From positions 1 through 64,000 of IMG/VR virus record IMGVR_UViG_3300010403_000002: a stretch of 64,000 nt of DNA. One strand, 5' to 3'. The position numbers were made by a program, and so were the translations under genes. This DNA comes from a virus. Shown in pieces: positions 15,287 to 32,465 of this stretch; position 1 is the first letter of the stretch, and every line of letters begins with the position of its first letter. The notes beneath the pieces were generated by a model, which was not told the DNA's origin, searched no databases, and saw only the letters and a program-made list of their open reading frames with translations.

Positions 15287-15301
15287 GGCAGAGACAACAC
15301 C

Positions 15302-16477: not shown

Positions 16478-16482
16478 CAGTA

Positions 16483-19400
16483 ATGCCACAAGACGCTTTC
16501 GCACAATGGCGCGCGGAGCGGCGCAAGACGGGGAAGCCTGCACCAGCCCCGACTCCTTTGGATGATCTGACGGAGTTTGCGCGTGCGCGTGGCGCAACCG
16601 TCACGAGCACCAATCGTGGCCGCCACAATCCAGGCAGCGCGCATTACGACAACCGGGCGATTGATGTGCGCACACGCGACCGCTCGCCCGCCGAAGTCGA
16701 GGCGTTGATGAATGACGCTGAGTCTTCGGGTTATGCCGTGCGTGACGAACGGCAACGTCCGTCCGGTCAGCAGGTCTGGGGCGGGCCGCACTTGCACCTT
16801 GAAGCGCAGGAGCCGCCCGACGACTTTGCGCAGTGGCGCGCAGAACGGCAACGCCCGCAACCTCGCAATGAGCCGCAGATAGGCCCGCGCGTCGCACAGC
16901 CAGCGACCGCAACCGATCCCTTTGAGCGGCAGCAGCCTGTCAGCATCGGTGGCCGCCCGCTCGTCACCCCAACACAGCCAGTCAAGCTACCCGCTGTTAA
17001 TCTGCGTGAGGCGCGTCGCCAGGCTCGTGATTTTACCGTTCCGCCCGAGCTGCAATCTCCCACTCCCGAACAATTCCAGAACGAGTTACAAGCTACGCGC
17101 ATCCAGCGCGAGCAGGCACGGCAGGCCTATGTCGCACAGCAACAGGCCAAGGTCGCAGGGCAGGGCAGGCTCGCAGAAGCCGGGACACGCTTCGCGCGCA
17201 GCGCAGCTAAGTCAACCGTCGCCCCGTTGGAGATGATCGCTGCCAGCCAGCCGACGGAGATTGGCGAAGAGGCGGTGAGGCGAGCGTCCGGACTGCCGCA
17301 GCTCGATACCGCGCTTGATGAATACTTGCCGGTTGATCCGAGCAAGCGGATGACGGCCAATCCGCTTGACCCGGACTTCTACTCGGTCACGATCCCGGAG
17401 GTCGCGGGCAACGTTGTCCCGATGATCGCTACCGGTAAAGTGCTGCCAGGCGGGCTAGCCTCGCGACTTGGCGCGACGGCAACCGGGATGATGCAGGCTG
17501 GGGGGCAGGGCTACCGTGAAGCGCGCGAATCCGGGGCAACCCGCGAACAGGCTCAGCGCCACGCCGGAGCCGAAGGCGTGATCGCTACGACAGAGATGCT
17601 GGGCGGCCAGGCGGCGCTCGGCAGTGCAGTGCGTCCCGTGGCGCGCGAGGTCGCTAAGGACATTGCCAAGGACGTAGGCCAAGAGGCTTATCAGCAGTGG
17701 CTCTCGAACCTCAACGCGGCTGATTACTCGAAGATTGACCCGCAGCGCGGCGAGTTCGAGGACGTGCCAGTCAGCGCGGTGGGTGGCGCACTGGTCAGCG
17801 GCGGGATGAACGCTGCGCACGCTGGCGCGCAACGTTTTGCCGGGAATCGCGCACAGGCCAGAGACACCGCCACCGTGCAGCAAGAACCCCTCGCGCCGCC
17901 ACAGATGCAGCGCACGGGCCAGTTGCGACCCACGCAGGTTGTCCCGCGCGCACAATTGGAGATGGCAGCCAGGCAGGGCACAGCGCCGCAGGCTGCACCA
18001 CAAGCCGCACCAGGAGCCGAGGAAAACCCGCTCGAGGCCTTCTTGCGCGAGCGGACGGGGAAGCTGGCTGAAGTAGCGCCAGCCGCTGAAGTAGAGAAGC
18101 CCTTGAGTGCGATTGCGCGCCGCAAGCTCGCGCAGGAGCAAACACTGCGCGAACGTCAGACACAGGCTCAGCAGAGCAATATGGATGCTGCTGATCAGCG
18201 CGCGGAGATGCTGCGGCGCGGTGATCTGGCGGGCGCGGCTGACCTACTGGCCGGGGAACTGGAAGTCATCGGCACGCAGTTGAAGGATGCGCGCAAGCTG
18301 GGCGATGTTGAGATGCAGCGCCGCCTGGTGGTATCGCGGCAAGCTGCTGAGCGCCAATATGACGAATTGCAGGCGCAAATCAAGCAGCAACAGCGCGCTG
18401 TACGTCCCGTGGCTCCGCCCAAGGCTGCCAGGCCACCCAGAGTGCCGCCGAGCGCCGAGAACGAGCCTCCACAGGTACAGCAGCGGGCGAACGCGCCAAC
18501 GGCTGAAGCGCCGCAGCAATCGGGCAAACTGCTCCGCTCGGTGGTCAACCCCGAAGGCGGGGTGCCTGTCGTGCAGCGGGCGACGCCGAGTTTTGAGAAC
18601 CTGGCCGAGCGTGAGGGTCGTCGCGAGTTCAACAGCGAAGAACTGGAAGGGAATCGTAACCTCTGGCAGTTCGTGAAAAAGCAGGGTGGCGTGCAGCGCA
18701 GCGTCGCCAATCGGGGCGAGTTGAGCTATCTGGTCGGCAGGGAAGGCGGTGCGCCCGGTGTAGTGAGCGATGCCGGGCTGCCAGTGGACGAAATGCGGCG
18801 CTACGCGAATGAGGCAGGCTTTGGGCCTTACGAGACCGAAGACGACTTCTTGCAGGCGCTGCGGAGAGGCCGGAACGAGTTTTCAAACGCGCGCCGTGTG
18901 AGCCGCTCGCTGGCTGACGAAGAAGAGGCTTACTACAGACAGAAGGGAAGCGCGGCGATGGAAGCCCCGGAGTCACCATCGCCGCTGAGTCAATGGGAAG
19001 TCCGGCGACAGGCTGCGGAAGACAAGGCTGTCGACCTGCGCCAGCGCATGATGGATGTCAATGACCAATTAACGCAAGTTGCAGTTGGGCGAGCACGCCT
19101 CTCGGACAGCGAGCAAGAGAGGTTACAACATGACCACATCTACCTAAAGCAGCAATATGCAGAAGCTCAGCAACGATTGCGCGATCTCGAACAGGCAGAG
19201 CCAGGCGAGCACTCGCCCCATATGCAACAAGAGGCTGAGTCCTTAGCGGGTGTAGTGTTTACACCCAGTAAGCCCGCCGAACAAATGACGCGGGCTGAAT
19301 GGGAAGCGCAGCCTGCAGACTGGAAGCGCAAGAACGACCATGAACTTGCCATCATCAAAGCCCTGAAGCACGGCCAGTCTGTCCCTGGTGAGGTCTTGGC

Positions 19401-22400
19401 AGGCTATCCACGCCTAAAGGCACGCTATGCCGCCCTGCTACAACCTGCAGAGGTCAAACCACCCACCGCGCCACTCGATTCAGCCTATCGCAAGCTTGGC
19501 ACTGAAGATGCGCAATCAATCAGCGATCTCTACGCCCGCGCCGATGATGTGCACCGTCGCTCATCCACGCCGGAAGAACGTGCGCGCGCACAACAGGCGC
19601 GTGAACTGGTTGGTTCACTGACTGAGGCTGAGCGCCGCGCGGTTGCCGAAGTCTTACCGGAGCGCCGCTTCTCGCCCGTGAAAGAGGCAGACCAGCCGAA
19701 CTACGGGCGCGCCGTCCAGGACATTGCGCTTGATGAGGCCAACCCGCAAGAGTTGGCGAACTTCGAGAGCGTGGCGAACTTCTTTGACGAGATGGCAAAG
19801 GGTAGCGCCGCCTTGACGCAGGATGAGCACGCCGCCGCGCGCCAGCAGTTAGAGCGCGCTGCCGAACTGCACGCCGAAACGATCACGCCGGAGCAGCGCC
19901 GCATAGCCACAGGGCTGAACGTGCTACTGACCTCGACAAAGGGCGATGCGGTGCGCTTCCGTCAGTTGTATGATAAGCTTCACGAAGGAGAGTTGACGCG
20001 CAATGAAGCCTACACGCTCAAAGACATCGGCAAGCAGTACGGACTCGCAGCCGTCTACCTTGACCACATTATTGCCGAAGGTGGAAGACGACGAGCAGAC
20101 ACAGCGGCGGCATCATCGCGCGCTGAGCGACCTGTTGAGCTTCGTCGTGAAGCAACAACGGGCCAGCCAGTCGAACGTCCGGCCAATGCCAGCGCGCAGC
20201 CTGCGTCCGGCGAGCGAGGCCGTAACACCATTGCCCGGCAAGGTGCTGCCAATGCGCCCGAAGTCGTAGGCGAGACCTCGACTACCGAAGCCAACCCAGC
20301 TAGTCAGCCCCTACCACAAGAGCAGCGCACCGTTGTGCACGACAATCCCACCATTCACGGCAAGCCTATTGTAGCTGAGACTGCCGATGGCCGCGTGATC
20401 GTGCCAAATGAGGCCAATAAATCGGGTGTGTCAGTGGTGAAGGATCAGAGCGGCAATCTACCAGAGCAGGGGGCAGCCTTTGGCGTGCGTCAATCAGGCT
20501 TCCCTGATGGTAGCTGGTACGTGACTGATCAGCACGGCGAAATTGTCAGATTTGGCGTACCGATGGGCGAGCTACCGCGCCGCTTCAAGACCAGTGAGGC
20601 TGCATTCAAGGCCGGGGAAAAGTGGGTTAAACAACAAGATAAAATCCGCGCCGGGCAGAAAGAAGGGCCAGCCTCTCACCCTGACGCCGCCTTTATCGAA
20701 TCTGTCATCCGCGAGCAGGGCGGGGAAATGCCCCGCGCCAATCTCATCCGCGAGTCTGGCCTGGTGCGCTCACGCGCGAATCCGGCGCTGGCAGCGCTGA
20801 AGGCTGAAGGGCGCGTAGTGGAAGAGAACGGGAAACTGCGTTTGGTAAAAACGCAGGATATTATCCCATCTGCCCGCCAACCAGGGGCGGAAGGTCAATC
20901 CGGTCAACCAGTTCTCAATAAGCGCAACCCCGAAGCCGGAGCCGTCCGCCTCGGTGGCCCGCCGCGCATTCCGCCCAACTTCGACCTAACCAAGCACGCA
21001 ACCGACATTGCTGCCCGGATGAAGCGCGAGCGCCGCAGCAAGGCTGAGATGGCGCAGGCTGTGCAACTACTGCGACACCTTGAGGCTGCGCAGAAGGCCA
21101 ACGATGCAGCAGCGTTCCAGGCTGCCCACTCACAACTCCGCACGCACGTCGAAGGCGGACCGGTCAAGCGCGCCGTCGCAACCGGCGGGGAAGTCCTCAA
21201 CTTCGCGCGAAGTTTGATGCTCACGGGCGATTTGCCACACATGCGGCAAGGACTCTTTCTGACCGTGCCGCCGCGTTACTGGAAACAGGCAACCACTGAT
21301 ACCGTTGAGGCGCTGCACAATGTCCGCGACGCGACATTCAAAGCTTTCCGTAAGATGCTCGAAAACGCCCCCGCCGCGAAACTCGGCACAAAATACGATC
21401 TCTACCTGGCCAGCAACGGAATGGCGGAAGAGAACTTTGCCTCCAAGTGGGCGCACAAGTTCTTCCTCACGCGCAAAGTTGAGCAGGTCTACGCCTCTTA
21501 CCTTGATCTGCGCCGTATTGATGCCTTTGAGCGAGCGGCTCGGCGCATTCTGCGCAACACGAAGCTAGGCGCGGAAGAGAAAGAAACGGCGCTGCGTGAT
21601 GCTGCGCGCGCCATCAATATCCTGTCCGGTCGTGGGCAAGTTGGCGAGACGGTCGAGAGCGCGATTCCGCTGCTCAACAAGATTCTGCTGGCCCCGCGTT
21701 ACACGATCAGCCGCTTGCAGATCCCGACACTGCTCCAACCGCAGAAGCCGGGCTACCGCGACGCTGTGCGTGACTTGGCCGAAACGAGCGCCGTGCTGCT
21801 CAGCCTGGGCGGTCTGGCGGTGGCAGCCGGTGTGGCCAGCACGTCGCTTGATTACGATGACCCGGACTTCCTGAAGCTGCGCGTGGGTAATAAGGTTTAC
21901 GACCTCTCGGCGGGGCTAGCGCCGGTCGCCAAGATCGCCGCGCAAGTGTCGGAGTGGGCTTGGTCGCAACGGCCTAGCGAGACGCGGCGCGAGCGGAAGC
22001 GGGTTTCAGAAGAGACAGTGAGCGACTTAGCGCGCTTTAGCCGCGGGAAGTTGTCGCCTGCGGCTTCGCTTATGGCTGACGCGTTGAGCGATTGGACGAA
22101 CATGGCAGGGGAGAAGGTGACGCCCACCAAGGCAGTGCTCGACCGCGTGATCCCGCTCATCTTGCGCGACACAGCGAATGCCTGGCAGGCGGAAGGGCCG
22201 GTCGGGGCGGCGGAGATCTTCCTGCCGGCGGAGCTAGGCGTGGGCACGGCAGTCTACCCGCAATCGCCCCTGCGGCAATCAGCACTGGCGGGGGATTTGC
22301 GCCGCTTTGATCTACCACGCGGCAACCTCTATCAGAAGGCAGGCGAGCCGAAAGAAACCTTCAAGGAACGCCAGCAAGCCTATGGCGAGATGTCGCGCGA

Positions 22401-22635
22401 GTTCGCACGGAAGCTCGCAGATGCACCGACCTACAAGGCTGCGCCGGACGAAGAGAAGAAGGCCATGTTGGGCTTGCTCGGCGAGCGGCTCAAGGATGCG
22501 AGCAATGAAGTAGAGCCAGACCGCGCCAAGCTGGAGCCAGACCGCATTCAGAGCGACGCTGAAGCGGCAGAGGCTAGGCGACGGAAGAAAGCGGCGAGTG
22601 AGCGGGGAAGGCTGCGGTATCAGCCGGAGCGGTGA
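16483..22635 (+). CDS. 2050-residue polyvalent/ejection protein with M15-like peptidase motif
   Basis: Residues about 25-107 carry SAHYDNRAIDV (Ser52, His54, Asp61) and GGPHLHLE (His103, His105), the zinc-site pattern of VanY/M15 D,D-peptidases, suggesting local peptidoglycan cutting during entry. A short DxFAQWRAER motif flanks this domain on both sides (residues 4 and 113). A long Ala/Gln/Arg-rich helical body follows. Near residues 1765-1830, hydrophobic helices and DPDFLKLRVGNKVYDLSAG resemble the C-terminal domain of phage large polyvalent proteins (LPD38-like). The length and composition fit an internal virion protein that is ejected with the DNA. It is the last gene of the plus-strand late block, facing the early operon. 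Confidence 0.75.
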   Translation: MPQDAFAQWRAERRKTGKPAPAPTPLDDLTEFARARGATVTSTNRGRHNPGSAHYDNRAIDVRTRDRSPAEVEALMNDAESSGYAVRDERQRPSGQQVWGGPHLHLEAQEPPDDFAQWRAERQRPQPRNEPQIGPRVAQPATATDPFERQQPVSIGGRPLVTPTQPVKLPAVNLREARRQARDFTVPPELQSPTPEQFQNELQATRIQREQARQAYVAQQQAKVAGQGRLAEAGTRFARSAAKSTVAPLEMIAASQPTEIGEEAVRRASGLPQLDTALDEYLPVDPSKRMTANPLDPDFYSVTIPEVAGNVVPMIATGKVLPGGLASRLGATATGMMQAGGQGYREARESGATREQAQRHAGAEGVIATTEMLGGQAALGSAVRPVAREVAKDIAKDVGQEAYQQWLSNLNAADYSKIDPQRGEFEDVPVSAVGGALVSGGMNAAHAGAQRFAGNRAQARDTATVQQEPLAPPQMQRTGQLRPTQVVPRAQLEMAARQGTAPQAAPQAAPGAEENPLEAFLRERTGKLAEVAPAAEVEKPLSAIARRKLAQEQTLRERQTQAQQSNMDAADQRAEMLRRGDLAGAADLLAGELEVIGTQLKDARKLGDVEMQRRLVVSRQAAERQYDELQAQIKQQQRAVRPVAPPKAARPPRVPPSAENEPPQVQQRANAPTAEAPQQSGKLLRSVVNPEGGVPVVQRATPSFENLAEREGRREFNSEELEGNRNLWQFVKKQGGVQRSVANRGELSYLVGREGGAPGVVSDAGLPVDEMRRYANEAGFGPYETEDDFLQALRRGRNEFSNARRVSRSLADEEEAYYRQKGSAAMEAPESPSPLSQWEVRRQAAEDKAVDLRQRMMDVNDQLTQVAVGRARLSDSEQERLQHDHIYLKQQYAEAQQRLRDLEQAEPGEHSPHMQQEAESLAGVVFTPSKPAEQMTRAEWEAQPADWKRKNDHELAIIKALKHGQSVPGEVLAGYPRLKARYAALLQPAEVKPPTAPLDSAYRKLGTEDAQSISDLYARADDVHRRSSTPEERARAQQARELVGSLTEAERRAVAEVLPERRFSPVKEADQPNYGRAVQDIALDEANPQELANFESVANFFDEMAKGSAALTQDEHAAARQQLERAAELHAETITPEQRRIATGLNVLLTSTKGDAVRFRQLYDKLHEGELTRNEAYTLKDIGKQYGLAAVYLDHIIAEGGRRRADTAAASSRAERPVELRREATTGQPVERPANASAQPASGERGRNTIARQGAANAPEVVGETSTTEANPASQPLPQEQRTVVHDNPTIHGKPIVAETADGRVIVPNEANKSGVSVVKDQSGNLPEQGAAFGVRQSGFPDGSWYVTDQHGEIVRFGVPMGELPRRFKTSEAAFKAGEKWVKQQDKIRAGQKEGPASHPDAAFIESVIREQGGEMPRANLIRESGLVRSRANPALAALKAEGRVVEENGKLRLVKTQDIIPSARQPGAEGQSGQPVLNKRNPEAGAVRLGGPPRIPPNFDLTKHATDIAARMKRERRSKAEMAQAVQLLRHLEAAQKANDAAAFQAAHSQLRTHVEGGPVKRAVATGGEVLNFARSLMLTGDLPHMRQGLFLTVPPRYWKQATTDTVEALHNVRDATFKAFRKMLENAPAAKLGTKYDLYLASNGMAEENFASKWAHKFFLTRKVEQVYASYLDLRRIDAFERAARRILRNTKLGAEEKETALRDAARAINILSGRGQVGETVESAIPLLNKILLAPRYTISRLQIPTLLQPQKPGYRDAVRDLAETSAVLLSLGGLAVAAGVASTSLDYDDPDFLKLRVGNKVYDLSAGLAPVAKIAAQVSEWAWSQRPSETRRERKRVSEETVSDLARFSRGKLSPAASLMADALSDWTNMAGEKVTPTKAVLDRVIPLILRDTANAWQAEGPVGAAEIFLPAELGVGTAVYPQSPLRQSALAGDLRRFDLPRGNLYQKAGEPKETFKERQQAYGEMSREFARKLADAPTYKAAPDEEKKAMLGLLGERLKDASNEVEPDRAKLEPDRIQSDAEAAEARRRKKAASERGRLRYQPER

Positions 22636-22656
22636 GCTATTATCTGTCGGGAAGGT

Positions 22657-22923
22657 TTAGGATACGCCCTTACCATCTATCTCATCGGCCACAGGCCGCA
22701 TTCGCCGATGCTCGGCAAATAGTGTTATGGCGTGCTCCCAACGCAGTGAGGGGCCGATATGAAAACCAAAGCCACATGTCGTGCAGACGTATTCGGTATA
22801 GCCTTTTTCTTTGTGCAATGATTTACGGTAGGTATCCAACGACAGAGAGGCAACGCCGCACGCTGGGCAGTAGGCGAGTCGGGCAAACTTGCTGGTTTTG
22901 GATTCTTTCGTATAATGCGACAT
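22657..22923 (-). CDS. Small zinc-ribbon protein
   Basis: The 88-residue product contains CPAC (from Cys19) and CTTC (from Cys47), the four ligands of a zinc ribbon, followed by an aromatic/basic tail. It is the last gene of the leftward early operon, 3 nt after its upstream neighbour. The function is unknown; it may bind nucleic acid or protein. Confidence 0.65.
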   Translation of the reverse strand: MSHYTKESKTSKFARLAYCPACGVASLSLDTYRKSLHKEKGYTEYVCTTCGFGFHIGPSLRWEHAITLFAEHRRMRPVADEIDGKGVS

Positions 22924-22926
22924 TCC

Positions 22927-23433
22927 TTAGTCCCACCATCCGCGTAGGTGCTTCTTCAGCATCCTGCCAAGATAATCAATGTCCTGCTGTGCTAAATACT
23001 CAGCATGCTGCCAGACATAAGTCCGCCGGCGCGATGACCATTGCGGGTAGGCTGCGTGCTCGTATCCCGCCAACTCCGGATAATCATCAGCTTCAAGTCT
23101 ACGGCATAACTCTGACACGATAAGTAGCTGCTTGGCGCTGCGCTCCGAGCTGGTCACCTTGCCGTGCTTTTGATGATGCGTTGCCATTAATCGTGCGGCG
23201 GTTGAGAGCATATCCATCAGCGGAGCATAGTCACAAGTATCAAAGTGCCAGACAACGGAACGGAAACGCCAGCAGTTGCGCAGGCCCACATACAAACACC
23301 AAAGCCGCCAGCGCATAGCTGCATAAGGACGCCACCCTTCATGGTTGAATCCGAGTAGACGGCGCAGCTTGAGCCTCAGCGAGCGCCACTGTGTTGGCTT
23401 GCTTCTGGTGATTATCTCTACCGTTTTTTCCAT
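22927..23433 (-). CDS. Conserved-type phage hypothetical protein
   Basis: The 168-residue product is helical and rich in Trp and His, with SERSAKQLLIVSELCRRL and a C-terminal KKHLRGWWD. This organisation (helical repeats ending in RGWWD) is one I associate with uncharacterised early phage proteins. It overlaps the HNH gene upstream by 95 nt in another frame. No function can be assigned. Confidence 0.6.
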   Translation of the reverse strand: MEKTVEIITRSKPTQWRSLRLKLRRLLGFNHEGWRPYAAMRWRLWCLYVGLRNCWRFRSVVWHFDTCDYAPLMDMLSTAARLMATHHQKHGKVTSSERSAKQLLIVSELCRRLEADDYPELAGYEHAAYPQWSSRRRTYVWQHAEYLAQQDIDYLGRMLKKHLRGWWD

Positions 23434-23776
23434 CTTTCATCCTTTTAAGTTGCAGTTCGTTGCGCTCCCGATTGCACTGCACGCAGCTTGCCACCAGATT
23501 CTCCGCTGTAGAATTGCCGCCTAACGCGTGCGGAAACAGGTGGTCAGTAGTAGCCTGATACGCCGTGATGGTTTGCCCCTCGCCGTCCACATAGCGGAAT
23601 TGTCGGCCAAGATCACATAACCCGCGCCGCCGATTTTTACGCACGGAGGCCACTGTCTTGATGATCCGTCCGCACCAAAAGCAGCGATCACGCTGCATCA
23701 TCAGCAGGAAATCGAGGTGACGCCGAGCTGTCAGGCGTTCATGGCGAACCTGTTTGCTGCTGCAATGGACTGTCAT
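23339..23776 (-). CDS. HNH endonuclease
   Basis: The 145-residue product has CFWCG followed by TTDHLFPHALGGNSTAENLVA and SCVQCNRERN. Two CxxC pairs form the structural zinc site and DHxxPxxxGG/N/H is the HNH metal-finger core. ATG 23776 is chosen because the longer ORF (to 23944) runs back into the promoter and RNA region and adds an implausible N-terminus; no clear Shine-Dalgarno precedes it. It could be a homing-type or packaging-associated nuclease. Its position beside the large structured RNA is notable, although that RNA shows no intron core. Confidence 0.75.
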   Translation of the reverse strand: MTVHCSSKQVRHERLTARRHLDFLLMMQRDRCFWCGRIIKTVASVRKNRRRGLCDLGRQFRYVDGEGQTITAYQATTDHLFPHALGGNSTAENLVASCVQCNRERNELQLKRMKDGKNGRDNHQKQANTVALAEAQAAPSTRIQP

Positions 23777-23834
23777 AACAATGTGAATATAGCACAGGAT
23801 GCCCGTCTTTATTGATCGAAATGCGCCTTGTCTA

Positions 23835-23843
23835 TGGTAAAAT
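23835..23843 (+). promoter_or_regulatory. Extended -10 promoter for structured RNA
   Basis: TG-G-TAAAAT matches an extended -10 element. A TTGATC hexamer lies 20 nt upstream of the TAAAAT, an over-long spacer, so the extended -10 would be the main contact. Transcription would start near 23850 and enter the gene-free structured region. It points opposite to the surrounding early operon. Confidence 0.4.
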
Positions 23844-23849
23844 ACTGTC

Positions 23850-24720
23850 CACATCGAGGACGCACACAGCAGTGAGGCCGTCCGATCAGCAAGCTTGCGG
23901 GCTAGATCGTGAGCCGGGGTAGTTTGACAAAGTAAAACGAGCACGATACGCCGAAGGCCGTCAGGAAGAAAGCAAACTTACTGCTTAATCCTGACGGCCT
24001 TTCGTTTGCCGCGAGCCAGATAAATGGCATAGGCAGGTGTCTAAGCTACCTCGCGACGTTGCGCAGAATACGCCTTGACTCAGCCGAACGCAAGCCAGAT
24101 AATGCGTCCCGTCTAAGCTAATCAGATGACTATGGCGATCACACTGCCAAAACTGAATAACTTGACCGCGCTGGCGCGGCGATACCTTTGTGTCTGCCCG
24201 TTGGCGTGTTTATGGCTCTTGAAGTCTGAGCAATGAGCAGTTGCATACTGCGCGGTTGGGGTGGAAGGCGAGATCACCGAGAAATCAAGCCTCCGGCGGT
24301 TTGCGAGTCTTGCGCTTCGGCGCTTTCACTCGCAGACGCCAGCCGAACGGGGAAGCCACCCGGTCAGGTTCAGCGCGAGATTCAACCGGAGCGATAATCC
24401 GGCCAAGCGGGCGCGCTGAGTATTGAAAACTGTTACGACTGCTTAGGCCGTTCCTCTGGCGTTATGCTCGCCAGAGTCTTCCCGGGCAACGCCGTGCTAC
24501 TAGATGCACTCACCGCCGCCTGCGTCCCGGTTGCAACTTGGTCTCTTGAAAGAATCGGCTAAGGTGGTACGGATAGCCTGTGAAATATCGGCAAAGCGGC
24601 TCAGACGGGAAGCTTCTCCACACTCGTAAGGTAAGACCAAGCGGGAAGGGCGGCGTTTCTCTACATGTGATTATTGCGGTGGTAACGGAATCTCAGCCGG
24701 GAACTCATCAGCCGGCCTCC
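23850..24720 (+). ncRNA. Candidate large structured noncoding RNA (about 0.87 kb)
   Basis: No credible gene exists here on either strand, although genes elsewhere are packed edge to edge. Perfect stems include: 13 bp (23954-23966 with 23989-24001); CCGCG/CGCGG (24166/24175); GCGAGT/ACTCGC (24303/24328) enclosing GCGC-TTCG-GCGC, a cUUCGg tetraloop in the plus-strand RNA; TCAGCGCG/CGCGCTGA (24370/24412) enclosing CCGGA/TCCGG (24386/24398); and CTCTGGCG/CGCCAGAG (24454/24469). The tetraloop and the promoter at 23835 favour the plus strand. Giant ornate phage RNAs such as GOLLD and ROOL are a natural comparison; identity is not established. Confidence 0.55.
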
Positions 24721-24724
24721 TTCC

Positions 24725-25195
24725 TTATTCGTCCTCTACGGAAAGACCGAGCGCGCTACACGCAGCCAGCGCAATCTGTTCGGGCGTGGCAGGTAAGAAG
24801 ATGCCCACATCCATACAACTCAATACGTAATCAAAAATCTTTTGCTGTCCCACCCGACCTAGCCCTAGGGCGTGGTAAAGTTCGCCAAAGAAGCGCAGCC
24901 AAACTTGATGGGCTGCGTCTGCTGGGTCTGAGGTACGCGGGTACAACCACGCAACCAACTTAGCCGCCGCTTCTCGGTCGGTAAAGAAGGCGGGCACTAT
25001 CTGAGGGTACATCTGGTCTGGCGGTAATGGCTTAAATAATGCTGACATGCTCGCGCGCAGACGAGCCTGCTCTTGCCACTCCTGATTGTTTGGAGGCAAC
25101 CCCCAACCTTCGCCCCATTTGCTGCCAATTTCAGTCCAGCCCATCTTTTGGGCCAGCGCGGCGCACGCTGCTGTTCTGCTTATCTTCTCGCTCAT
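24725..25195 (-). CDS. Phage early hypothetical protein
   Basis: The 156-residue product is helical and acidic at the C-terminus. It contains DREAAAKLVAWL, a segment I associate with phage early proteins of unknown function. A GGAG site precedes the ATG. The start overlaps the stop of the upstream zinc-ribbon gene (ATGA). Confidence 0.65.
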   Translation of the reverse strand: MSEKISRTAACAALAQKMGWTEIGSKWGEGWGLPPNNQEWQEQARLRASMSALFKPLPPDQMYPQIVPAFFTDREAAAKLVAWLYPRTSDPADAAHQVWLRFFGELYHALGLGRVGQQKIFDYVLSCMDVGIFLPATPEQIALAACSALGLSVEDE

Positions 25196-25341
25196 TCTGC
25201 TCCTTTCACTTCACACAGGAACTTAGCCTGCCTGGTCTTTTCCTGGCCGCACTTGCAACGATACGTGGCGACGCCTGTCTCTTCGTCGAAGGCGACCAGT
25301 TTCTTGAATCTGCAAACGTGTCTTCTTTTTCGGGTAGCCAT
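25192..25341 (-). CDS. 49-residue zinc-binding protein
   Basis: The start at 25341 is supported by AGGAAA upstream. Residues include VCRFKKLVAF and YRCKCGQEKTRQAKFLC, so a four-Cys zinc site is likely. It is coupled to the following gene by ATGA. Function unknown. Confidence 0.55.
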   Translation of the reverse strand: MATRKRRHVCRFKKLVAFDEETGVATYRCKCGQEKTRQAKFLCEVKGAE

Positions 25342-25423
25342 TAGTTTCCTATTGCGGCTCAGCAGGGGAGCCATTATCTGTATTCATCTTTCCAAGCATA
25401 TCCAGTACGTCCGATAATGGCTT

Positions 25424-25894
25424 TTATGTCCCAGCGGCCTCGGTTGTCGGGTCTTGGGACTGCTTAGGTGTCGGGTTCAGGGCAGTGTCAATCCACGATG
25501 TGAAGCCATTAGGATTAAGGCCCGCGCTCGCCGCCAAATTAGTCAGGCTGTCTTTCGCGCGCCGCAACGCCTCATCCTTCACCGTGATTTGCTGGCGCAG
25601 TTCGTCGCGCTCGCGTTCAAGAGCAAACCGCTGCGCCTCGAGATCGAAAATCTTTGAACGCAAATTACCACCTCGCGCGGGCGTCCTGTCCAGTTCCGCT
25701 TTCACGATTGATAGTTCAGCCCGCAACCGCTCGCACTCCGCCAACTGCTCGGCTTGGGCGGCAAACTCGACGAGCGCATCACGTATCAACTCGCAATAGG
25801 ACTGACCGAGAAGGATGCACGGCGTCTCGCCAAGCAGTTGTATATCCAGATCGGAGCGCAACGTGTTGAGCCTTTTCAGGTCTTCGTCATTCAT
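25424..25894 (-). CDS. Coiled-coil hypothetical protein
   Basis: The 156-residue product has a long central coiled coil (about residues 45-118, heptads such as LRSKIFDLEAQRFALERERD) and a C-terminal Pro/Thr tail. Such proteins often surround early phage gene sets; no specific family is recognised. It abuts its upstream neighbour (the gene ending at 25895) with no gap. Confidence 0.55.
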   Translation of the reverse strand: MNDEDLKRLNTLRSDLDIQLLGETPCILLGQSYCELIRDALVEFAAQAEQLAECERLRAELSIVKAELDRTPARGGNLRSKIFDLEAQRFALERERDELRQQITVKDEALRRAKDSLTNLAASAGLNPNGFTSWIDTALNPTPKQSQDPTTEAAGT

Positions 25895-26197
25895 TCACTC
25901 CCCCTCTTTCCCGGCCCGCAATGAGCCGCGCTCGGTCGCCACTTCCATCATTTGACGCAGCTTGCGCTTCTTGGCTTCTATACGGTCACGATCCCCGATA
26001 GTGATGGGCAGACCGAGTTCCTGTAGCAACTCGACCACTCCCAACACATCATCCAACTCGATGGATAGAACCTCCACGTTGCCGCGCCCATCTGGGTACG
26101 CACCCTTAACGGCGAATCTATTCACCTTGCATGCCGCCTGAATGACCTCGGCGCACTCTTCGTTCAGGCACTCCAATACGTGCTCAATTAGGTTCAT
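25895..26197 (-). CDS. All-alpha NTP pyrophosphohydrolase-like (MazG-like)
   Basis: The 100-residue product contains LNEECAEVIQAACKVNRF (Glu13, Glu14, Glu17) and ELDDVLGVVELLQELG (Asp49, Asp50), the paired acidic helices that bind Mg2+ in the all-alpha NTP-PPase superfamily. Family knowledge suggests hydrolysis of (d)NTPs to monophosphates, for pool control or removal of alarmone-type nucleotides during replication. The length fits the short phage subfamily. It overlaps the upstream gene by 14 nt. Confidence 0.7.
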   Translation of the reverse strand: MNLIEHVLECLNEECAEVIQAACKVNRFAVKGAYPDGRGNVEVLSIELDDVLGVVELLQELGLPITIGDRDRIEAKKRKLRQMMEVATERGSLRAGKEGE

Positions 26198-26435
26198 TTT
26201 CCCTCTTTCCCGGCCCGCGCTTGGCGGGCTTCTGCTGCTTTTCGATCACCTGCAATAGGTAGATCACTTTATCTACAACCTCGCCGACCGGCACGCCCAA
26301 CGCGAATTGAGCGTGCGCATCTTTAAGCCACATCGTGGTCGGATTATCTGCAAAGCCCCTTCCCCCGCCGAACGACGGAAACCTGTCGGCAATGAGCTTC
26401 ACGATGTTTTGACGCTGTTTTTTAGTTACTCGCAT
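26184..26435 (-). CDS. Small early hypothetical protein
   Basis: The 83-residue product starts at MRVTKKQRQNIVKL; the upstream 19-codon extension is Arg/Gly-rich and contains the GGGAGG site itself. It has basic ends and helices (VGEVVDKVIYLLQVIEKQQ). No family is recognised. Confidence 0.5.
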   Translation of the reverse strand: MRVTKKQRQNIVKLIADRFPSFGGGRGFADNPTTMWLKDAHAQFALGVPVGEVVDKVIYLLQVIEKQQKPAKRGPGKRENEPN

Positions 26436-26518
26436 TCCGCGTTCCCTCCCTCGTCTGCCTGTTCCCCTTGTAGTGCGAAGGCCAGCAGACACGCACGCCC
26501 ACTGGCCCCTTGCGCCAT

Positions 26519-27166
26519 CTACTGCGCCCTACTCTTCGCAATGTCTGCCTCAAGCTGCGTGGCCAAGCTGTAATCGCCCCGCTCTCTCAACTGCGCGATT
26601 TTCTGGTTCAGCCGGTCATAGCTGACCGGAAGATCAGGCAGTTGATAAGCCACTGCCGGAGCGCCCAACACCACGTTCACCACACGCAAGCCAACCGTGC
26701 CGCCGCTGGGCTGCTTGCCTTCGCTGCTCACTTGCAACCCTAGATGTGGGCTGAAGCAGTTCTTCTGCCACGCCCCCGCAACTGTGCGCTCACCACATGT
26801 CACCTTGAACGGCAAGCCAGGCCAGTCAGCATTCAGGCCACTGCGGCTGTAGGTGGTCGCCGGGTAGCCGAGAAAGTCGAGCACTGCGCTGCCGTCGTGT
26901 GTGCGCAACTGGCCGTGCTGTGGATCAATCCACGTCTTCAGGTTCAACGTAACGGCACCATCCGGCTTTCGATGCTGCTGCGTTTCATAGCTGCGCCCGT
27001 CGCCATAGGTAAAGCGCCGGAACGTTGAAGTGACGACGCCATTGGTGGCGAACTCCACATCCACCGTTGACGGGAGAGCGAACTGCGGCGCGGATTGTGC
27101 GCGAGAGATGCGCCAGCCAACTGCCAGCGCCAACAGACAAATCGAAACAGCGAGCAATTTCTTCAT
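26519..27166 (-). CDS. Secreted protein in early operon
   Basis: The 215-residue product starts at ATG 27166, 7 nt after AAGGAG. A signal peptide (MKKLLAVSICLLALAVGW, cut near RAQS) precedes a beta-rich domain with two Cys (CGERTVAGAWQKNC). A C-terminal helical pair follows (SYDRLNQKIAQLRERGDYSL). Secreted proteins in the middle of an early replication operon are uncommon. Together with the following Cys-rich gene it may act on the host envelope, for example in exclusion. No family is recognised. Confidence 0.6.
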   Translation of the reverse strand: MKKLLAVSICLLALAVGWRISRAQSAPQFALPSTVDVEFATNGVVTSTFRRFTYGDGRSYETQQHRKPDGAVTLNLKTWIDPQHGQLRTHDGSAVLDFLGYPATTYSRSGLNADWPGLPFKVTCGERTVAGAWQKNCFSPHLGLQVSSEGKQPSGGTVGLRVVNVVLGAPAVAYQLPDLPVSYDRLNQKIAQLRERGDYSLATQLEADIAKSRAQ

Positions 27167-27201
27167 GGGTAATCTCCTTGTGTTAGTTGTTACAGGTGAG
27201 G

Positions 27202-27459
27202 CTAGGTGAGTATACATCCGGGGCAGGTGCTACAGCACCCCATTGTGTTCCAGCCGGGCGTTCCCTCACCGCAGTCATAAGACATCACCTCGCAGCCTTC
27301 TGCCAGGGAGCAGCAGCCGGAACAGAAGGTGGACATATACCGGCAACCCGCTGGCGGCGCCGGAAAGCTGCAATCGGCGTATTGTGGTGCGGTAAACCAC
27401 ACCAGCGCCGCGCAGAGTAGCAAGGCGAGTGAGAGGAAAAACGTTTTGTTCAACTTCAT
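27202..27459 (-). CDS. Cysteine-rich secreted mini-protein
   Basis: The 85-residue product has GGAG 7 nt before the ATG. A signal peptide (about residues 1-27) is followed by a mature part of about 57 residues with 11 Cys, including CSGCCSLAEGC and GCCSTCPGC. The density and spacing suggest a disulfide-knotted extracellular or periplasmic peptide rather than a zinc finger. It lies next to another secreted protein gene. Function unknown. Confidence 0.6.
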   Translation of the reverse strand: MKLNKTFFLSLALLLCAALVWFTAPQYADCSFPAPPAGCRYMSTFCSGCCSLAEGCEVMSYDCGEGTPGWNTMGCCSTCPGCILT

Positions 27460-27519
27460 TGAGTGATTCTCCTTTTCGGGTTTTGAGTTAATCGGGGCTA
27501 CTAAGATCGCTTAGCAGCG

Positions 27520-27933
27520 CTATTGCGCGTTCCGTCCAGGTCGTTTCTTCTTCAGCTTTCCTTGATACAACCGACAGCCACACGGCTCGGCGTACACACA
27601 CTTGCCAACCTGCACTTTGGTTATCTCAACTTTGTGAGTCGGGCAGATGTCGTTCTTGATGTCTTCGAAGTGCGCTTTGATCACGGCCAGTGTGCGCGCC
27701 TCGTCTGCTTCTTCCTCTTCTTTAGTGGGATAAGAAGCTTCAGTACAACACAGCCTGGCCATCACTTCTTCGCCCAGCGGCAAGCCGTGCGGTATACATG
27801 GATAAGCCAACGCGTACATTGGAGCGACAACGCCATGATCAGTTGGTTGCGCGACGGATTCATAAGGAATGCCTTTGTCGCACGTCTTGTTAGCTGTGCC
27901 GTTGAAATGGCGGCAGGTGGTTGTTTTGAGCAT
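27520..27933 (-). CDS. Cys-rich phage protein with CRHFNG motif
   Basis: The 137-residue product begins TTCRHFNGTANKTCDKGIPY, a start I associate with uncharacterised phage early proteins (C-x-HFNG...C..G(V/I)xY). There are about eight Cys, including CLCC-like and CGC groups, and an acidic helix (PTKEEEEADEARTL). Metal binding is likely. It overlaps the upstream stop by 1 nt. Confidence 0.6.
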   Translation of the reverse strand: MLKTTTCRHFNGTANKTCDKGIPYESVAQPTDHGVVAPMYALAYPCIPHGLPLGEEVMARLCCTEASYPTKEEEEADEARTLAVIKAHFEDIKNDICPTHKVEITKVQVGKCVYAEPCGCRLYQGKLKKKRPGRNAQ

Positions 27934-28124
27934 TAGGCGTCCTCCGTAAGCTGGGCAATCAATGCCTCAAGCGTGAGAATGCAAAAGCAGGCGGCAAGGT
28001 GAACTCTGTAATCATGCTCCCCGGCTAGCGCGATTAGCTCAGCGTCGCCTGCTAGGTCTATGGGCCACAGTAGATTCATCGGCATCTTCCCGGTCGGAAT
28101 ACCCCAATGCATTCCATAGATCAT
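27933..28124 (-). CDS. Small hypothetical protein
   Basis: The 63-residue product has a mixed hydrophobic/acidic sequence (MIYGMHWGIPTGKMPMNLLW). Start and stop overlap both neighbours by 1 nt, which supports coupling. No family is recognised. Confidence 0.45.
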   Translation of the reverse strand: MIYGMHWGIPTGKMPMNLLWPIDLAGDAELIALAGEHDYRVHLAACFCILTLEALIAQLTEDA

Positions 28125-28693
28125 TAGTTCACCTCTCTGCTTTCGGTTGGCACGTCGGGCAGTTCCCTACTGCCCACACCCCGCACTCCGCGCACACGAT
28201 CACGCCCGGTAGTAACAGAGCGAGGCCGTGTGCGGTTGCTTGCTGTCTGACCGCTAAGCCGTCTTGTCGAGCCTGACTGGTAGCCTGCTGCAAGATGCTC
28301 AGCGAAGCCTCTAAGTCTATCGGCCTCGTCCCGGCTCTGTTGGTGACGACCTTTGCCGCGTCGCCAGGCGAGTCGTCTTTCGACGGCGGGGGTAAGCTTC
28401 CCGCCTGGCCTAATAACTCGCTCTCTAACGAAGCGGAGCACATATCTGTAGTTTCCGCGTCCATCCTTTTCAACCCTCCATAATTCAGCCCAAGCATCAT
28501 CTTCGGGTATTTGATTTTCTGCTTTATTGTTCCAAATAACCGACAGGTCTAAGTCTTCTGTTTCCAATGTGATGATTTGCCCGGTGATTTCATCGGGTAT
28601 TTGCCTGATTACATCCCCGCCATCTGCCAGAGTAGTTGAAATACCCTCAAGCCTAGCGCCAGGCATATAATCGCCATCACCCAATGCTCCCAT
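28124..28693 (-). CDS. Hypothetical protein overlapping zinc-ribbon gene
   Basis: The 189-residue product starts at MGALGDGDYMPG. The first 100 residues look protein-like (ITLETEDLDLSVIWNNKAEN, WRVEKDGRGNYRYVL). The last 85, which overlap the zinc-ribbon gene in another frame, are Arg/Gly/Ser-rich and could be a read-through tail. Either a genuine overlap or a frameshift ending the gene early is possible. Confidence 0.4.
   Translation of the reverse strand: MGALGDGDYMPGARLEGISTTLADGGDVIRQIPDEITGQIITLETEDLDLSVIWNNKAENQIPEDDAWAELWRVEKDGRGNYRYVLRFVRERVIRPGGKLTPAVERRLAWRRGKGRHQQSRDEADRLRGFAEHLAAGYQSGSTRRLSGQTASNRTRPRSVTTGRDRVRGVRGVGSRELPDVPTESREVN
28129..28464 (-). CDS. Protein with C-terminal zinc ribbon
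   Basis: The 111-residue product starts at ATG 28464 with GGAGG 12 nt upstream. Its C-terminal CAECGVWAVGNCPTC is a compact zinc ribbon unlikely to arise by chance. The middle is helical (ASLSILQQATSQARQDGLAV). It overlaps another same-strand ORF (28124-28693) over its whole length; the zinc ribbon and ribosome-binding site make this frame the more convincing of the two here. Confidence 0.55.
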   Translation of the reverse strand: MDAETTDMCSASLESELLGQAGSLPPPSKDDSPGDAAKVVTNRAGTRPIDLEASLSILQQATSQARQDGLAVRQQATAHGLALLLPGVIVCAECGVWAVGNCPTCQPKAER

Positions 28694-28794
28694 GATGTTT
28701 TCACCGCGGGTGGCTGGTAAAAGGGACGCAGGCATCCCATCACATAGCCCACCAGTGCGATTAGTAAGAGTGTCGCTTTTAGTCCTGTGTCCAT
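28609..28794 (-). CDS. Two-span membrane protein
   Basis: The 61-residue product has AAGGAAGG just upstream of ATG 28794. There are two hydrophobic helices (ATLLLIALVGYVMGC and HWVMAIICLALGLRVF) with a short loop, a holin-like topology. It is in the early operon, so a role in membrane tethering or exclusion is equally possible. It overlaps the next gene by 85 nt. Confidence 0.5.
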   Translation of the reverse strand: MDTGLKATLLLIALVGYVMGCLRPFYQPPAVKTSWEHWVMAIICLALGLRVFQLLWQMAGM

Positions 28795-28806
28795 TGCCTT
28801 CCTTGC

Positions 28807-28908
28807 TCAGCCCAGAGACCAGAAGAGCGCCCGTATCATTCCTATTACAGCCAGTACCGCCGCCAAGATCAGCAACTCTCCCAGTAGTTTGTTTTGCTCG
28901 TCGTCCAT
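28807..28908 (-). CDS. 33-residue membrane peptide
   Basis: The ORF starts MDDEQNKLLGELLILAA, has one hydrophobic span and ends RALFWSLG. AGGAGAC lies 5-6 nt before the ATG. It directly precedes the two-span membrane gene and follows a multi-span membrane gene, so three membrane genes are consecutive. Confidence 0.45.
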   Translation of the reverse strand: MDDEQNKLLGELLILAAVLAVIGMIRALFWSLG

Positions 28909-28953
28909 CCTGGTCTCCTTCCGCCTCACCCCCAGCATCAGGAATGAGGCGCG

Positions 28954-29565
28954 TTAATTTGGGCGCTGGCCCTCCCTCTCTTCTCCATTGATGTACTGCG
29001 GCAGCGGCTCAGTGTGCCGCTCTCCCGCTCTCCCGCTCTCCCGCTTCCCTACTCCGGCCTGTGCGACCGGTTGCCGCCGTGAAGCAACCGCAAAGATCAC
29101 CATCGCCGAAGCCAATTCAAGGAAGGCGAGCAGCGCAGCATTGACCGCCACGTCATCACCGAACATCCGGTCGAGCGGGGTAGCCTCGCGTGCGCTCATC
29201 CCGATCTGGCGCGCGATGGCTTTGCTCGATGCCCTGGCCGCCGCCGCCATCCCAGCTTCGTACTTGCGCACCTGGGCAGAGTTGAAGGACTCGACGCCGG
29301 CAGCGCGCACGCCGTTGTACGCGAGATAGCCAGCGTTGGCGGAGCAGATGACCGCGAGCACGACCTTCATGAAAGTCTCACCAGGCGTCTCGACGTGGAA
29401 CAGGTAGAGCGCGGCGAGTCCCGCAATCGCTGCCGAGACCGCCACCCAGACGCCAAGCTGCGCACCGTAGACCCACCACGCGGCAACGCTGATGCCGCCG
29501 ACGAGCAGCGTGTAGATCAGCAGGAATACCACCCAATCAAACAGTGTTCTGCGGTTGTCACTCAC
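28954..29565 (-). CDS. Multi-span membrane protein
   Basis: The 203-residue product is taken from a GTG (VSDNRRTLFDW) because GGAGAGGAAA sits just upstream; the longer ATG starts lack a site. About five hydrophobic helices follow (VVFLLIYTLLVGGISVAAWW, LGVWVAVSAAIAGLAALYLF and others), with a polar loop of about 60 residues before the last one. The C-terminal tail is charged. No family is recognised; it may be an early envelope or exclusion protein. Confidence 0.55.
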   Translation of the reverse strand: MSDNRRTLFDWVVFLLIYTLLVGGISVAAWWVYGAQLGVWVAVSAAIAGLAALYLFHVETPGETFMKVVLAVICSANAGYLAYNGVRAAGVESFNSAQVRKYEAGMAAAARASSKAIARQIGMSAREATPLDRMFGDDVAVNAALLAFLELASAMVIFAVASRRQPVAQAGVGKRESGRAGERHTEPLPQYINGEEREGQRPN

Positions 29566-29594
29566 TTGTTTCCTCTCCGGCACCATGGTTGTTG

Positions 29595-29909
29595 TTAGTC
29601 TTGCTTTGGCGCGAACTTGCGCGGAAACGGTAAATCCCAATTGTCTACGACCCGTTGCCAGTCCAGATCGTCAGCCTCGGCATCGGCCTGTCCGACGCGG
29701 AGAACGCTAGCGAATTGCTCTTGAATGTGCGGCAGCAACATCGCCTCTTTGGGGAACATTCCAGCAGACGGCAAGCTTAAGAAAACGCTCGTTACCGCGC
29801 ACTCCAGGCACATGCCGTTGTCTGATTTGCGCACCGGTCGCGCTTGCTGGTTGCCGGTTTTTTCGGCTACGCATTGCTTGCCACAGCGCGGGCAGTTTTT
29901 AATGTTCAT
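29595..29909 (-). CDS. Zinc-ribbon protein
   Basis: The 104-residue product starts at MNIKNCPRCGKQC, preceded by AAGGAG. CPRC near the N-terminus and CLEC after a 20-residue basic segment complete a zinc ribbon. The C-terminus has LDWQRVVDNWDLPFP. The start overlaps the end of the methyltransferase gene by 11 nt. Confidence 0.6.
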   Translation of the reverse strand: MNIKNCPRCGKQCVAEKTGNQQARPVRKSDNGMCLECAVTSVFLSLPSAGMFPKEAMLLPHIQEQFASVLRVGQADAEADDLDWQRVVDNWDLPFPRKFAPKQD

Positions 29910-31173
29910 CGTTCTCCTTGTCGGCACCATCTTGTTCTGTTATTGCTTCGACCGCCGCTTTGATAAATTCCGCCGCTGTTTGCGGACAGATTGCATTGCC
30001 GTAGCCCCGCAAGAGTCCCACCCTGCCGGGAATCCCATTAGCCAAGCACTGAAGGCTGGATTTAACGCGCCGCGCTTTTCCGTCGAGACAATAGACGAGT
30101 TCGTAATCACTCCACGCGCCACCACATTCAAACTGACCGTTGCTTTTGTCCCGTCCGGTCGCCGCCCCGTCAACGTCGCACCCTTCGCCATTTGTGAGCC
30201 GTCTGCGTTGGCCGCCGTCGGGGTGGGCCATCCCCCTAAGATAATCCCCTGTACTTGATCTTCCAGTCTCGCCTGGCCATCGCACGCTCTCTCCGGATTC
30301 CCGTTGCCGCCGTTGTTCGCTACGCGGGGCGTCCCCCAACCAGCCAGCGTCACTTGCTGGCTTAGCGGAACACCCGTATCCCAAGGACGGGGCGGCTGAT
30401 TGCCTCTTGCCCCGTCCTGTGCTGTTGGGCTGCACCAGCCCGCCAAGACTGCCTGGTCTGCCAAGTTGATTTGATGCCCGCTCTCCATCCTGGCCAATGC
30501 TTTTGCCGGGTCCGCGTAATCCCCGCCGCGCTCGTTGCTGTCCGGTGAACGCCATCCAGTAAAGCCGCTGTCTGATGTGGGGCGCGCCGGGTTCACAATC
30601 AAATTGAGCGTAATTGCCGCTCTCGACCCACCATTCTCTAAAAACCTCTGCTGCAAGTTCTCCAAGCTCGCCGACGATAGCTTCAGCAATTCGCTCACCG
30701 ACTGTATCGGTTTTCGTGCCTGTGCCCGCAGCGCACAAATCTGCGGCCCCGACTCCATATCCCAACGTTTCCAAGTCAGCGCGTACTCTGGCGAGCCATC
30801 TACGTCCAAGCGGGCTTGCAGTTTGCTCTCCAAAGACGATTGCAGGCGCGCACTGAGCAATAAGGCTGCGGAAGTATGGCCAGAGGTGGCGCGGGTCTTC
30901 TTCGCCGCGCTGCTGGCCGGCTTGGCTGAAGGGTTGGCAGGGCGGTGAGCCTGTCCAGACGGAGCAGTTTGTGGGCCATCCGGCGAGTCGAAGAGCTTCT
31001 GACCATCCAGCAACGCCAGCAAAGAAGTGGCATTGAGTGAATCCCATAACGTCCACTGGTCTGACTTCTTGAATATCTCGCTCATCAACTTCACCATTAG
31101 GAATCAACTTCGCCTTTATCAATTCGCGCAGCCACGCGGCGGTTGGCTTGTCGTGTTCGTTGTAGTAATTCAT
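29899..31173 (-). CDS. DNA C5-cytosine methyltransferase (phage Dcm type)
   Basis: The product has 424 residues from ATG 31173 (429 from 31188). Motifs run in order: FFAGVAGWSEALRLAGW (AdoMet site), GSPPCQPFSQAG (catalytic Cys), VFGEQTASP (the ENV motif, replaced by GEQ as in phage enzymes), GAPHIRQRLYW (QRxRxY) and GNAICPQTAAEF (C-terminal motif). It methylates cytosine C5, probably protecting phage DNA from host restriction. No restriction partner is seen. A second long ORF in the +1 frame lies wholly inside it. Confidence 0.85.
   Translation of the reverse strand: MNYYNEHDKPTAAWLRELIKAKLIPNGEVDERDIQEVRPVDVMGFTQCHFFAGVAGWSEALRLAGWPTNCSVWTGSPPCQPFSQAGQQRGEEDPRHLWPYFRSLIAQCAPAIVFGEQTASPLGRRWLARVRADLETLGYGVGAADLCAAGTGTKTDTVGERIAEAIVGELGELAAEVFREWWVESGNYAQFDCEPGAPHIRQRLYWMAFTGQQRARRGLRGPGKSIGQDGERASNQLGRPGSLGGLVQPNSTGRGKRQSAAPSLGYGCSAKPASDAGWLGDAPRSEQRRQRESGESVRWPGETGRSSTGDYLRGMAHPDGGQRRRLTNGEGCDVDGAATGRDKSNGQFECGGAWSDYELVYCLDGKARRVKSSLQCLANGIPGRVGLLRGYGNAICPQTAAEFIKAAVEAITEQDGADKENDEH
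29940..31097 (-). CDS. Overlapping +1-frame ORF of Dcm locus (AGWxTP repeat protein)
   Basis: The 385-residue ORF lies inside the methyltransferase gene on the same strand. Its ATG overlaps the TAA of a small upstream ORF (TAATG), a normal coupling site. The sequence is not shadow-like: it has GSPEYALTWKRWDMESGP, repeated LAGW-(S/G)-(T/S)P blocks (AGWCSPTAQDG, AGWGTPRVANN, GGWPTPTAAN) and a C-terminal NPAFSAWLMGFPAGWDSC. I associate these features with annotated phage proteins near Dcm genes. The function is unknown. It could be a separate protein or the product of frameshifting. Confidence 0.5.
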   Translation of the reverse strand: MVKLMSEIFKKSDQWTLWDSLNATSLLALLDGQKLFDSPDGPQTAPSGQAHRPANPSAKPASSAAKKTRATSGHTSAALLLSARLQSSLESKLQARLDVDGSPEYALTWKRWDMESGPQICALRAQARKPIQSVSELLKLSSASLENLQQRFLENGGSRAAITLNLIVNPARPTSDSGFTGWRSPDSNERGGDYADPAKALARMESGHQINLADQAVLAGWCSPTAQDGARGNQPPRPWDTGVPLSQQVTLAGWGTPRVANNGGNGNPERACDGQARLEDQVQGIILGGWPTPTAANADGSQMAKGATLTGRRPDGTKATVSLNVVARGVITNSSIVSTEKRGALNPAFSAWLMGFPAGWDSCGATAMQSVRKQRRNLSKRRSKQ

Positions 31174-31228
31174 CTTGTTGCTCTTCATCCCGGCGCACGT
31201 CTTCGTGCGCCAGCCAGTCGGCGCTCAT
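31097..31228 (-). CDS. 43-residue charged coupling ORF
   Basis: The ORF starts MSADWLAHEDVRRDEEQQDE and is strongly charged. Its ATG overlaps the stop of the gene at 31225 (ATGA) and its TAA overlaps the ATG of the ORF at 29940-31097 (TAATG). It may be a real micro-protein or simply carry ribosomes to the internal frame. Confidence 0.4.
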   Translation of the reverse strand: MSADWLAHEDVRRDEEQQDELLQRTRQANRRVAARIDKGEVDS

Positions 31229-31509: not shown

Positions 31510-31519
31510 GTGTCCTCCT

Positions 31520-32368: not shown

Positions 32369-32458
32369 TTAAGTAGTCTCCTGTTCAGCGCGCTCGCAGA
32401 ATGCGCGCATCGTCTCGATGATGCGGGCGGCGAGTTGTTCAGCTTGTGCGAGTTTCAT
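32369..32458 (-). CDS. 29-residue ORF
   Basis: It begins MKLAQAEQLAARIIETM and ends FCERAEQETT, directly followed by the DUF5131 start (TAA then ATG). The pattern LAxxI...CERxE recalls the very beginning of Pol X-type nucleotidyltransferases, so it may be a truncated remnant. Evidence is slight. Confidence 0.3.
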   Translation of the reverse strand: MKLAQAEQLAARIIETMRAFCERAEQETT

Positions 32459-32465
32459 TACTTAC

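Follow-up and report, generated by a model that had tools for sequence, protein, structure and literature searches.

The region spanning positions 23846–24720 belongs to an orphan phage that is probably temperate, and it is best read as a stand-alone structured RNA on the plus strand, similar in size and setting to the GOLLD and ROOL RNAs; this reading is put forward tentatively, at somewhat less than even confidence. The window analyzed comprises bases 1–64,000 of a 76,215-base virus record (IMGVR_UViG_3300010403_000002), and the outer limits of this candidate structured noncoding RNA were drawn from coding signal, fold z-scores, a helix-sum test, and purine content. Within these limits there is no coding signal, structure on the plus strand exceeds that of shuffled sequences, and base composition is strand-specific. 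The region is a well-placed candidate RNA. We infer a transcript that would begin near 23850 and extend to ~24720 as a single noncoding RNA, read opposite to the surrounding minus-strand genes. Its fold would comprise several domains, of which 23906–24060 is the firmest, and it would act as RNA and not as message. Its function would probably be that of a stand-alone structural or ribonucleoprotein RNA of infection or lysogeny, as is thought for GOLLD and ROOL.

The record encodes a phage integrase (PF00589), a DnaB helicase, an O-like replication initiator, and a large terminase, and the source virus is therefore a phage and probably a temperate one. Most of the large proteins tested against families were without any match. 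For example, a 2050-aa protein (16483–22635, plus strand) had neither a PHROG match nor a tblastn match in 50,697 phage records. Plus-strand genes stop at 22635, three small ORFs within 22657–23776 all lie on the minus strand, and the called genes from 24725 to 43790 are likewise all on the minus strand. The divergent neighbor of the candidate is an HNH endonuclease gene of 145 aa (23339–23776, minus strand), which matched PF14279 (E = 5.8e-8), PF01844 (E = 1.1e-6), and PHROG HNH families; the only domains detected in its protein by Pfam are HNH domains (HNH_5/HNH). The convergent neighbor is a 156-aa ORF (24725–25195, minus strand) without a family match. The integrase gene lies ~20 kb from the candidate, and no tRNA genes were found in the whole 76-kb record.

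The initial annotation held that about 0.9 kb of this locus lacks any credible gene, and the coding analysis bears this out. The best ORF lying entirely within 23777–24724 had a codon-model score of 0.5, versus at least 6 for called genes; three-base periodicity of the region was 1.37 (median across the genome, 5.13; 8% of 267 windows scored lower); and six stop-masked frames searched against Pfam gave a single row of 16.2 bits, under the family cut-off of 27. A frameshift-broken gene was rejected on the low periodicity together with the six-frame search, in which no match rose above cut-off. The accompanying claim that the operon elsewhere has almost no gaps is roughly true, but further low-score gaps are present, although those at 3821–4453 and 5126–5783 do contain ORFs.

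Folding of the 875-nt plus strand of 23846–24720 gave -344.4 kcal/mol, versus -318.9 ± 8.6 for shuffled sequences (z = -2.97; 1 of 400 as low), and the minus strand gave -329.7 kcal/mol (z = -2.32; 10 of 400 shuffles as low). A helix-only test was also applied, in which G-C pairs scored 3, A-U pairs 2, and G-U pairs 1, spans were below 160, and the eight best helices were summed. By this measure, the plus strand scored 223, a sum reached by none of 300 shuffles (191.8 ± 9.7), whereas the minus strand scored 197, a sum reached by 82 of 300 (190.7 ± 9.7); laxer penalties gave the same contrast between strands, if less sharply. The helix test places the excess on the plus strand, which is what a contribution from G-U pairs would predict.

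Compared with shuffles, the excess of structure is real but uneven; compared with the rest of the genome, it is modest. When fold energy was corrected for composition, the region ranked 8th and 12th of 290 window-strands genome-wide. Its helix score ranked 8th of 288 window-strands, its plus-minus difference 24th among windows, and its best 300-nt window 11th of 850 in the genome. Values were obtained for 11 of 13 low-coding gaps, and among these 11 the region had the lowest z of all, at -2.77 on one strand and -2.49 on the other. The earlier description of a highly structured region thus holds against shuffles, but equally strong folds occur in other windows, coding ones included. Similarly, its count of at least seven perfect stems was overstated: there are three of at least 8 bp with loops of at most 40 (shuffle mean 0.6; 4 of 200 shuffles attain three) and four of at least 7 bp (23 of 200 shuffles attain four). 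One stem of 13 bp is nevertheless exceptional, being the sole perfect stem beyond every shuffle (0 of 200 with one of at least 12 bp).

Base composition changes sign across the boundaries of the region. GC skew is positive within it, at +0.017 to +0.065 (windows with starts at 23800, 24025, and 24250), but turns negative in the minus-strand genes to either side. Purine content of the plus strand is 0.522, versus 0.479 in 22657–23776, 0.435 in 24725–26500, and 0.454 in 26500–34000; in the plus-strand genes of 9668–22635, it is 0.531. The flip in both skew and purine content fits a plus-strand transcript and speaks against a minus-strand leader or intron.

The structure is unevenly distributed along the region. 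The first 440 nt (23846–24285) gave z = -3.24 on the plus strand (2 of 500 shuffles) and -1.95 on the minus strand, and the 3′ half (24286–24720), taken as a unit, was no better than chance (z = -1.0 plus, -0.9 minus). Since most of the excess resides within those 440 nt, structure is firmly supported for the first part, whereas the argument for a single 0.9-kb architecture is weak. A plus-strand structured RNA is the part of the original proposal that is best supported, by strand-specific helices and the composition flip, and its extension to one 0.9-kb RNA is hypothetical.

Domain 1 (23906–24060, plus strand) is predicted to be closed by a 14-bp helix (23916–23929 with 24038–24052) having one bulged U, and to enclose a 13-bp hairpin and a GCCA-GAUAAA-UGGC hairpin. 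Its z-score is -6.1 on the plus strand (0 of 300 shuffles) and -4.9 on the minus strand, and that of 23906–24055 is -6.31. The 13-bp hairpin, a perfect stem (23954–23966 with 23989–24001, plus strand) with an inner 5-bp stem, accounts for much of this excess; with the hairpin removed, domain 1 gave z = -2.75 on the plus strand (13 of 1000) and -2.02 on the minus strand. The segment 24061–24285 that follows gave z = -1.86 plus and -0.25 minus. Here, a 12-pair helix (24111–24125 with 24153–24166, plus strand; mean pair probability 0.82) is predicted, as is an 18-pair, plus-strand-specific hairpin with five G-U pairs (24167–24208), the surrounding segment of which (24160–24212) gave z = -3.76 plus and -0.26 minus.

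Farther 3′, a long hairpin at 24295–24340 (z = -4.48 plus, -3.92 minus) is capped by a cUUCGg tetraloop, which had been said to exist in the plus-strand sense only and does so, being present at 24316–24319 where the other strand reads CGAA. A further plus-strand hairpin with an inner stem (24364–24426; 24370–24377 with 24412–24419) was identified from the predicted fold and stem count, and the minus strand folds better there. An 8-bp perfect hairpin (24454–24476, plus strand) emerged from the stem count and a segment fold test. The single elements 24295–24340 and 24448–24482 of the 3′ half are strong, though picked from the predicted fold, and since the short segments tested were chosen in this manner, their z-scores are inflated. 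Of the ten segments tested, three (24061–24160, 24108–24168, and 24366–24422) have the better fold on the minus strand.

A sequence repeat scan disclosed an internal repeat on the plus strand, with copy 1 at 24015–24048 (GCCAGATAA-N15-GTCTAAGCTA) and copy 2 at 24094–24120 (GCCAGATAA-N8-GTCTAAGCTA). The longer string CGCRAGCCAGATAA (13 of 14 bases alike) and then GTCTAAGCTA (10 of 10) appear a second time in that order, at offsets of 79 and 72 bases. The pattern GATAA-N{4,26}-CTAAGC occurs twice in the 64-kb window, both times in the region, versus 0.25 expected, and 3 of 100 shuffles reach two. The fold prediction pairs the first GTCTAAGCTA with TAGTTTGAC upstream of it, in the domain 1 helix, and the second with TAACTTGAC downstream of it, in the 12-pair helix. 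As read from the predicted strings, both helices leave the same U unpaired, and they differ at one place, with G-U in one and G-C in the other. Such an arrangement hints at a repeated structural module, although the copies number just two and their pairing is predicted.

Regarding the ends of the candidate RNA, a consensus scan found a promoter-like site at 23816–23843 on the plus strand, consisting of TCGAAA, 16 nt, and TAAAAT with a preceding TG (an extended -10), from which a start would be expected at ~23850. The initial annotation had credited the RNA with its own promoter. The extended -10 sequence is indeed present (TGGTAAAAT, 23835–23843), but chance gives such matches about as often: TGNTAWAAT occurs three times in 64 kb versus 1.56 expected, and six promoter-like sites were found in 14001–34000 versus 5.5 expected. 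With counts so near to chance expectation, the promoter match carries little weight. Downstream, the 13-bp hairpin is followed, on the plus strand only, by a T-rich stretch that is interrupted by CG, and together they could end a short RNA near 24005 as a possible terminator. At the far end, a weak GCCGG/CCGGC hairpin followed by CTCCTTCCTTATT (24698–24718, plus strand) was read from the sequence and not flagged by the terminator scan. It is a possible 3′ end, located just ahead of the convergent gene's stop codon and with a pyrimidine-rich stretch on its 3′ side, the whole lying near 24698–24730.

Comparison with known families gave no Rfam match at gathering scores in the window or in the remainder of the record. 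The covariance search proposed in the initial annotation was run with permissive filters (E ≤ 10) over 1,151 bases, and it returned three chance rows, all far below cut-off, with no family near its threshold. The best of these was RAGATH-31 (RF03101), at 21.2 bits versus a cut-off of 71.8, on the minus strand of the 13-bp hairpin; a long self-complementary stem can lift such a covariance score on either strand. Neither GOLLD nor ROOL, which the earlier reading had also failed to match, gave a row up to E = 10 in the region, and the same was true of group I introns, group II introns, and HEARO; membership in any of these was rejected on this ground. Across the phage's own record, the GOLLD model found nothing, where 14 control genomes gave five weak matches with none above cut-off and hence no proven positive control, and the ROOL model found nothing in either the record or any control genome, so that its absence is incompletely controlled. 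HEARO, or omega RNA, is an HNH-associated RNA whose expected neighbor is an IscB/IsrB-type gene. The candidate does adjoin an HNH gene, but its orientation is divergent, its neighbor is a 145-aa protein with HNH domains only, and it has no HEARO row to E = 10.

GOLLD RNAs are phage-encoded, stand-alone RNAs, often >800 nt, with many stems and unknown function; they occur in a phage or prophage setting, often close to tRNA genes, their conserved part is the 3′ region, and one has been reported to assemble as a 14-mer cage (PMC12286853). ROOL is described as a large structured phage-encoded RNA, also of unknown function (PMC12286853). The candidate resembles GOLLD (RF02032) in phage setting, similar length, and many stems, but it leaves the 416-position Rfam model unmatched to E = 10, has no tRNA in its record, and carries its excess of structure in the 5′ part as opposed to the conserved 3′ region of GOLLD. 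Likewise, it would be a large phage RNA as ROOL (RF03087) is, but with no match to E = 10 and no tRNA nearby. As covariance models of sequence and structure gave no match to GOLLD or ROOL, the candidate is assigned to neither. A literature search that was not exhaustive found no description of it.

Judged by sequence comparison, the phage is an orphan in the collections searched. Neither the fetched loci (2.07 Mb) nor the phage and plasmid records contained a relative, and protein-anchored scans of viral contigs with the HNH protein, the 24725 ORF, the 22927 ORF, and the C-terminal portion of the 2050-aa protein yielded no related locus. A DUF5131 scan of viral contigs gave 49 loci, and a terminase alignment scan gave 80 viral and 80 genomic loci, the closest terminase segments having 48% identity over ~250 residues. 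The 2050-aa protein is encoded in none of the 49 whole DUF5131 records, and its C-terminal part in none of the 39 searched of the 160 terminase records.

Nucleotide searches were equally negative. Blastn of the region against phages and plasmids gave short chance matches only; 29 of the 49 DUF5131 records had matches at E ≤ 1, every one of at most 27 nt, and the 39 terminase records had one match at E ≤ 0.01, of 18 nt and in an apparent terminase frame. The motif CCAGATAA...GTCTAAGCT was found in 40 stretches, 38 of them in open frames of >100 codons, and the other two (L062 and L082) are unlike the window for 40 bases on either side and do not match model R1. A 16-mer scan gave 45 stretches, nine of which lack a 110-codon open frame, and none of these is like the window beyond the 16 bases. 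With nhmmer (E ≤ 10; 308 loci plus the window), the window alone was matched and none of the 308 loci, while lax-score blastn of the loci gave two matches (E = 0.042; 29 and 35 nt) that were taken as chance. A one-sequence model of domain 1, searched against the window, L265, and 63 other loci (of 310), returned the window and an E = 5.3 row in L010, and a one-sequence covariance model found nothing in 48 records. A second copy in the phage's own genome was searched for and rejected. Missing relatives do not by themselves argue against function.

Several other explanations compete with a stand-alone RNA of this length. One is a short plus-strand RNA of ~160 nt, starting at ~23850 and ending at an intrinsic terminator formed by the 23954–24001 hairpin, with the rest being spacer or something else. 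It is rather unlikely, though it draws on the fact that the 13-bp hairpin alone exceeds all shuffles, on the T-rich stretch after it on the plus strand only, and on the lack of significant structure in the 3′ half as a unit. However, a CG breaks the T stretch, the 14-bp helix of domain 1 spans the hairpin and requires read-through, domain 1 without the hairpin still reaches z = -2.75, and the strand-specific hairpin at 24167–24208 lies beyond the terminator. About as improbable is that the region is non-functional DNA, either a decayed gene or a spacer inserted beside the HNH gene, and GC-rich enough for chance folding. The adjoining HNH gene, of an often mobile kind, would suit such an origin, as would the other genome windows that equal or exceed the fold and helix scores and the lack of any relative or conservation in the collections searched; but no shuffle of 300 reached the plus-strand helix sum, domain 1 stands at z = -6.1, the composition has the sign of a plus transcript, opposite to that of the neighbors, and the six frames hold no protein family above cut-off.

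Three further readings are far less probable. A divergent GOLLD, ROOL, or other described large RNA could have been missed by the Rfam models, and the similar length (GOLLD is often >800 nt; PMC12286853) and phage setting would agree with this, but such an identity is very unlikely in light of the missing GOLLD and ROOL rows to E = 10 over the 1,151 bases, the empty searches of the phage's own record, and a 76-kb record without tRNA. Slimmer still are the chances of an element on the minus strand associated with the HNH gene, such as a leader, an intron, or a guide-like RNA. While the region is directly upstream of the HNH ORF on that strand, where the fold reaches z = -2.32 and some segments fold better, the helix sum of that strand is unremarkable (reached by 82 of 300 shuffles), the composition matches a plus transcript, Rfam gave no row to E = 10 for group I introns, group II introns, or HEARO, and Pfam detects only HNH domains in the HNH protein. 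Least credible of all is a DNA-level element, i.e., an origin or recombination site with inverted repeats acting as DNA; perfect inverted repeats do occur, but the stretch has no tandem repeats and no AT-rich tract, the integrase gene is 20 kb distant, and a plus-specific helix excess with G-U pairs would be needless for DNA. An origin with iterons in the region was rejected for want of tandem repeats.

Returning to the plus-strand structured RNA, a bolder and doubtful form of it is conceivable, namely that large phage RNAs with several domains include a new family not related to GOLLD or ROOL. Its core would be a module present in two copies, made up of a GAUAA-bearing loop and a bulged GUCUAAG/YUUGAC helix, and its transcription would run opposite to the neighboring operon. 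By analogy with other ornate RNAs, such an RNA might oligomerize through its loops. Known structured bacterial RNAs of very large size fall into few classes, with GOLLD and ROOL, both from phages, having unknown function (PMC12286853). If true, a third unrelated large phage RNA would suggest more than one origin for RNAs of this sort, and it would offer a fresh system for asking what large phage RNAs do.

Other features of the genome deserve mention in their own right. The sequence TGGTAAAAT also occurs at 5770–5778 of the window on the minus strand, ~6 nt before the minus-strand ATG (5763) of a 62-aa ORF. Two overlapping windows of 890 nt, with starts at 37826 and 38271 (37826–39160), each contain seven perfect short-loop stems of at least 8 bp, far exceeding the stem counts of any other window; the replication initiator gene is located there, and these stems are perhaps origin repeats. 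Finally, a C5 cytosine methylase ORF (29899–31188, minus strand; PF00145) fully contains a 385-aa ORF in another frame (29940–31097, minus strand), which has no Pfam match. Both overlapping frames have relatives at matching places in L048 (15651–16802) and L032 (12225–13226), in which the second frame stays open over 362 and 331 codons, respectively, and the two ORFs likely constitute a conserved dual-coding gene pair.
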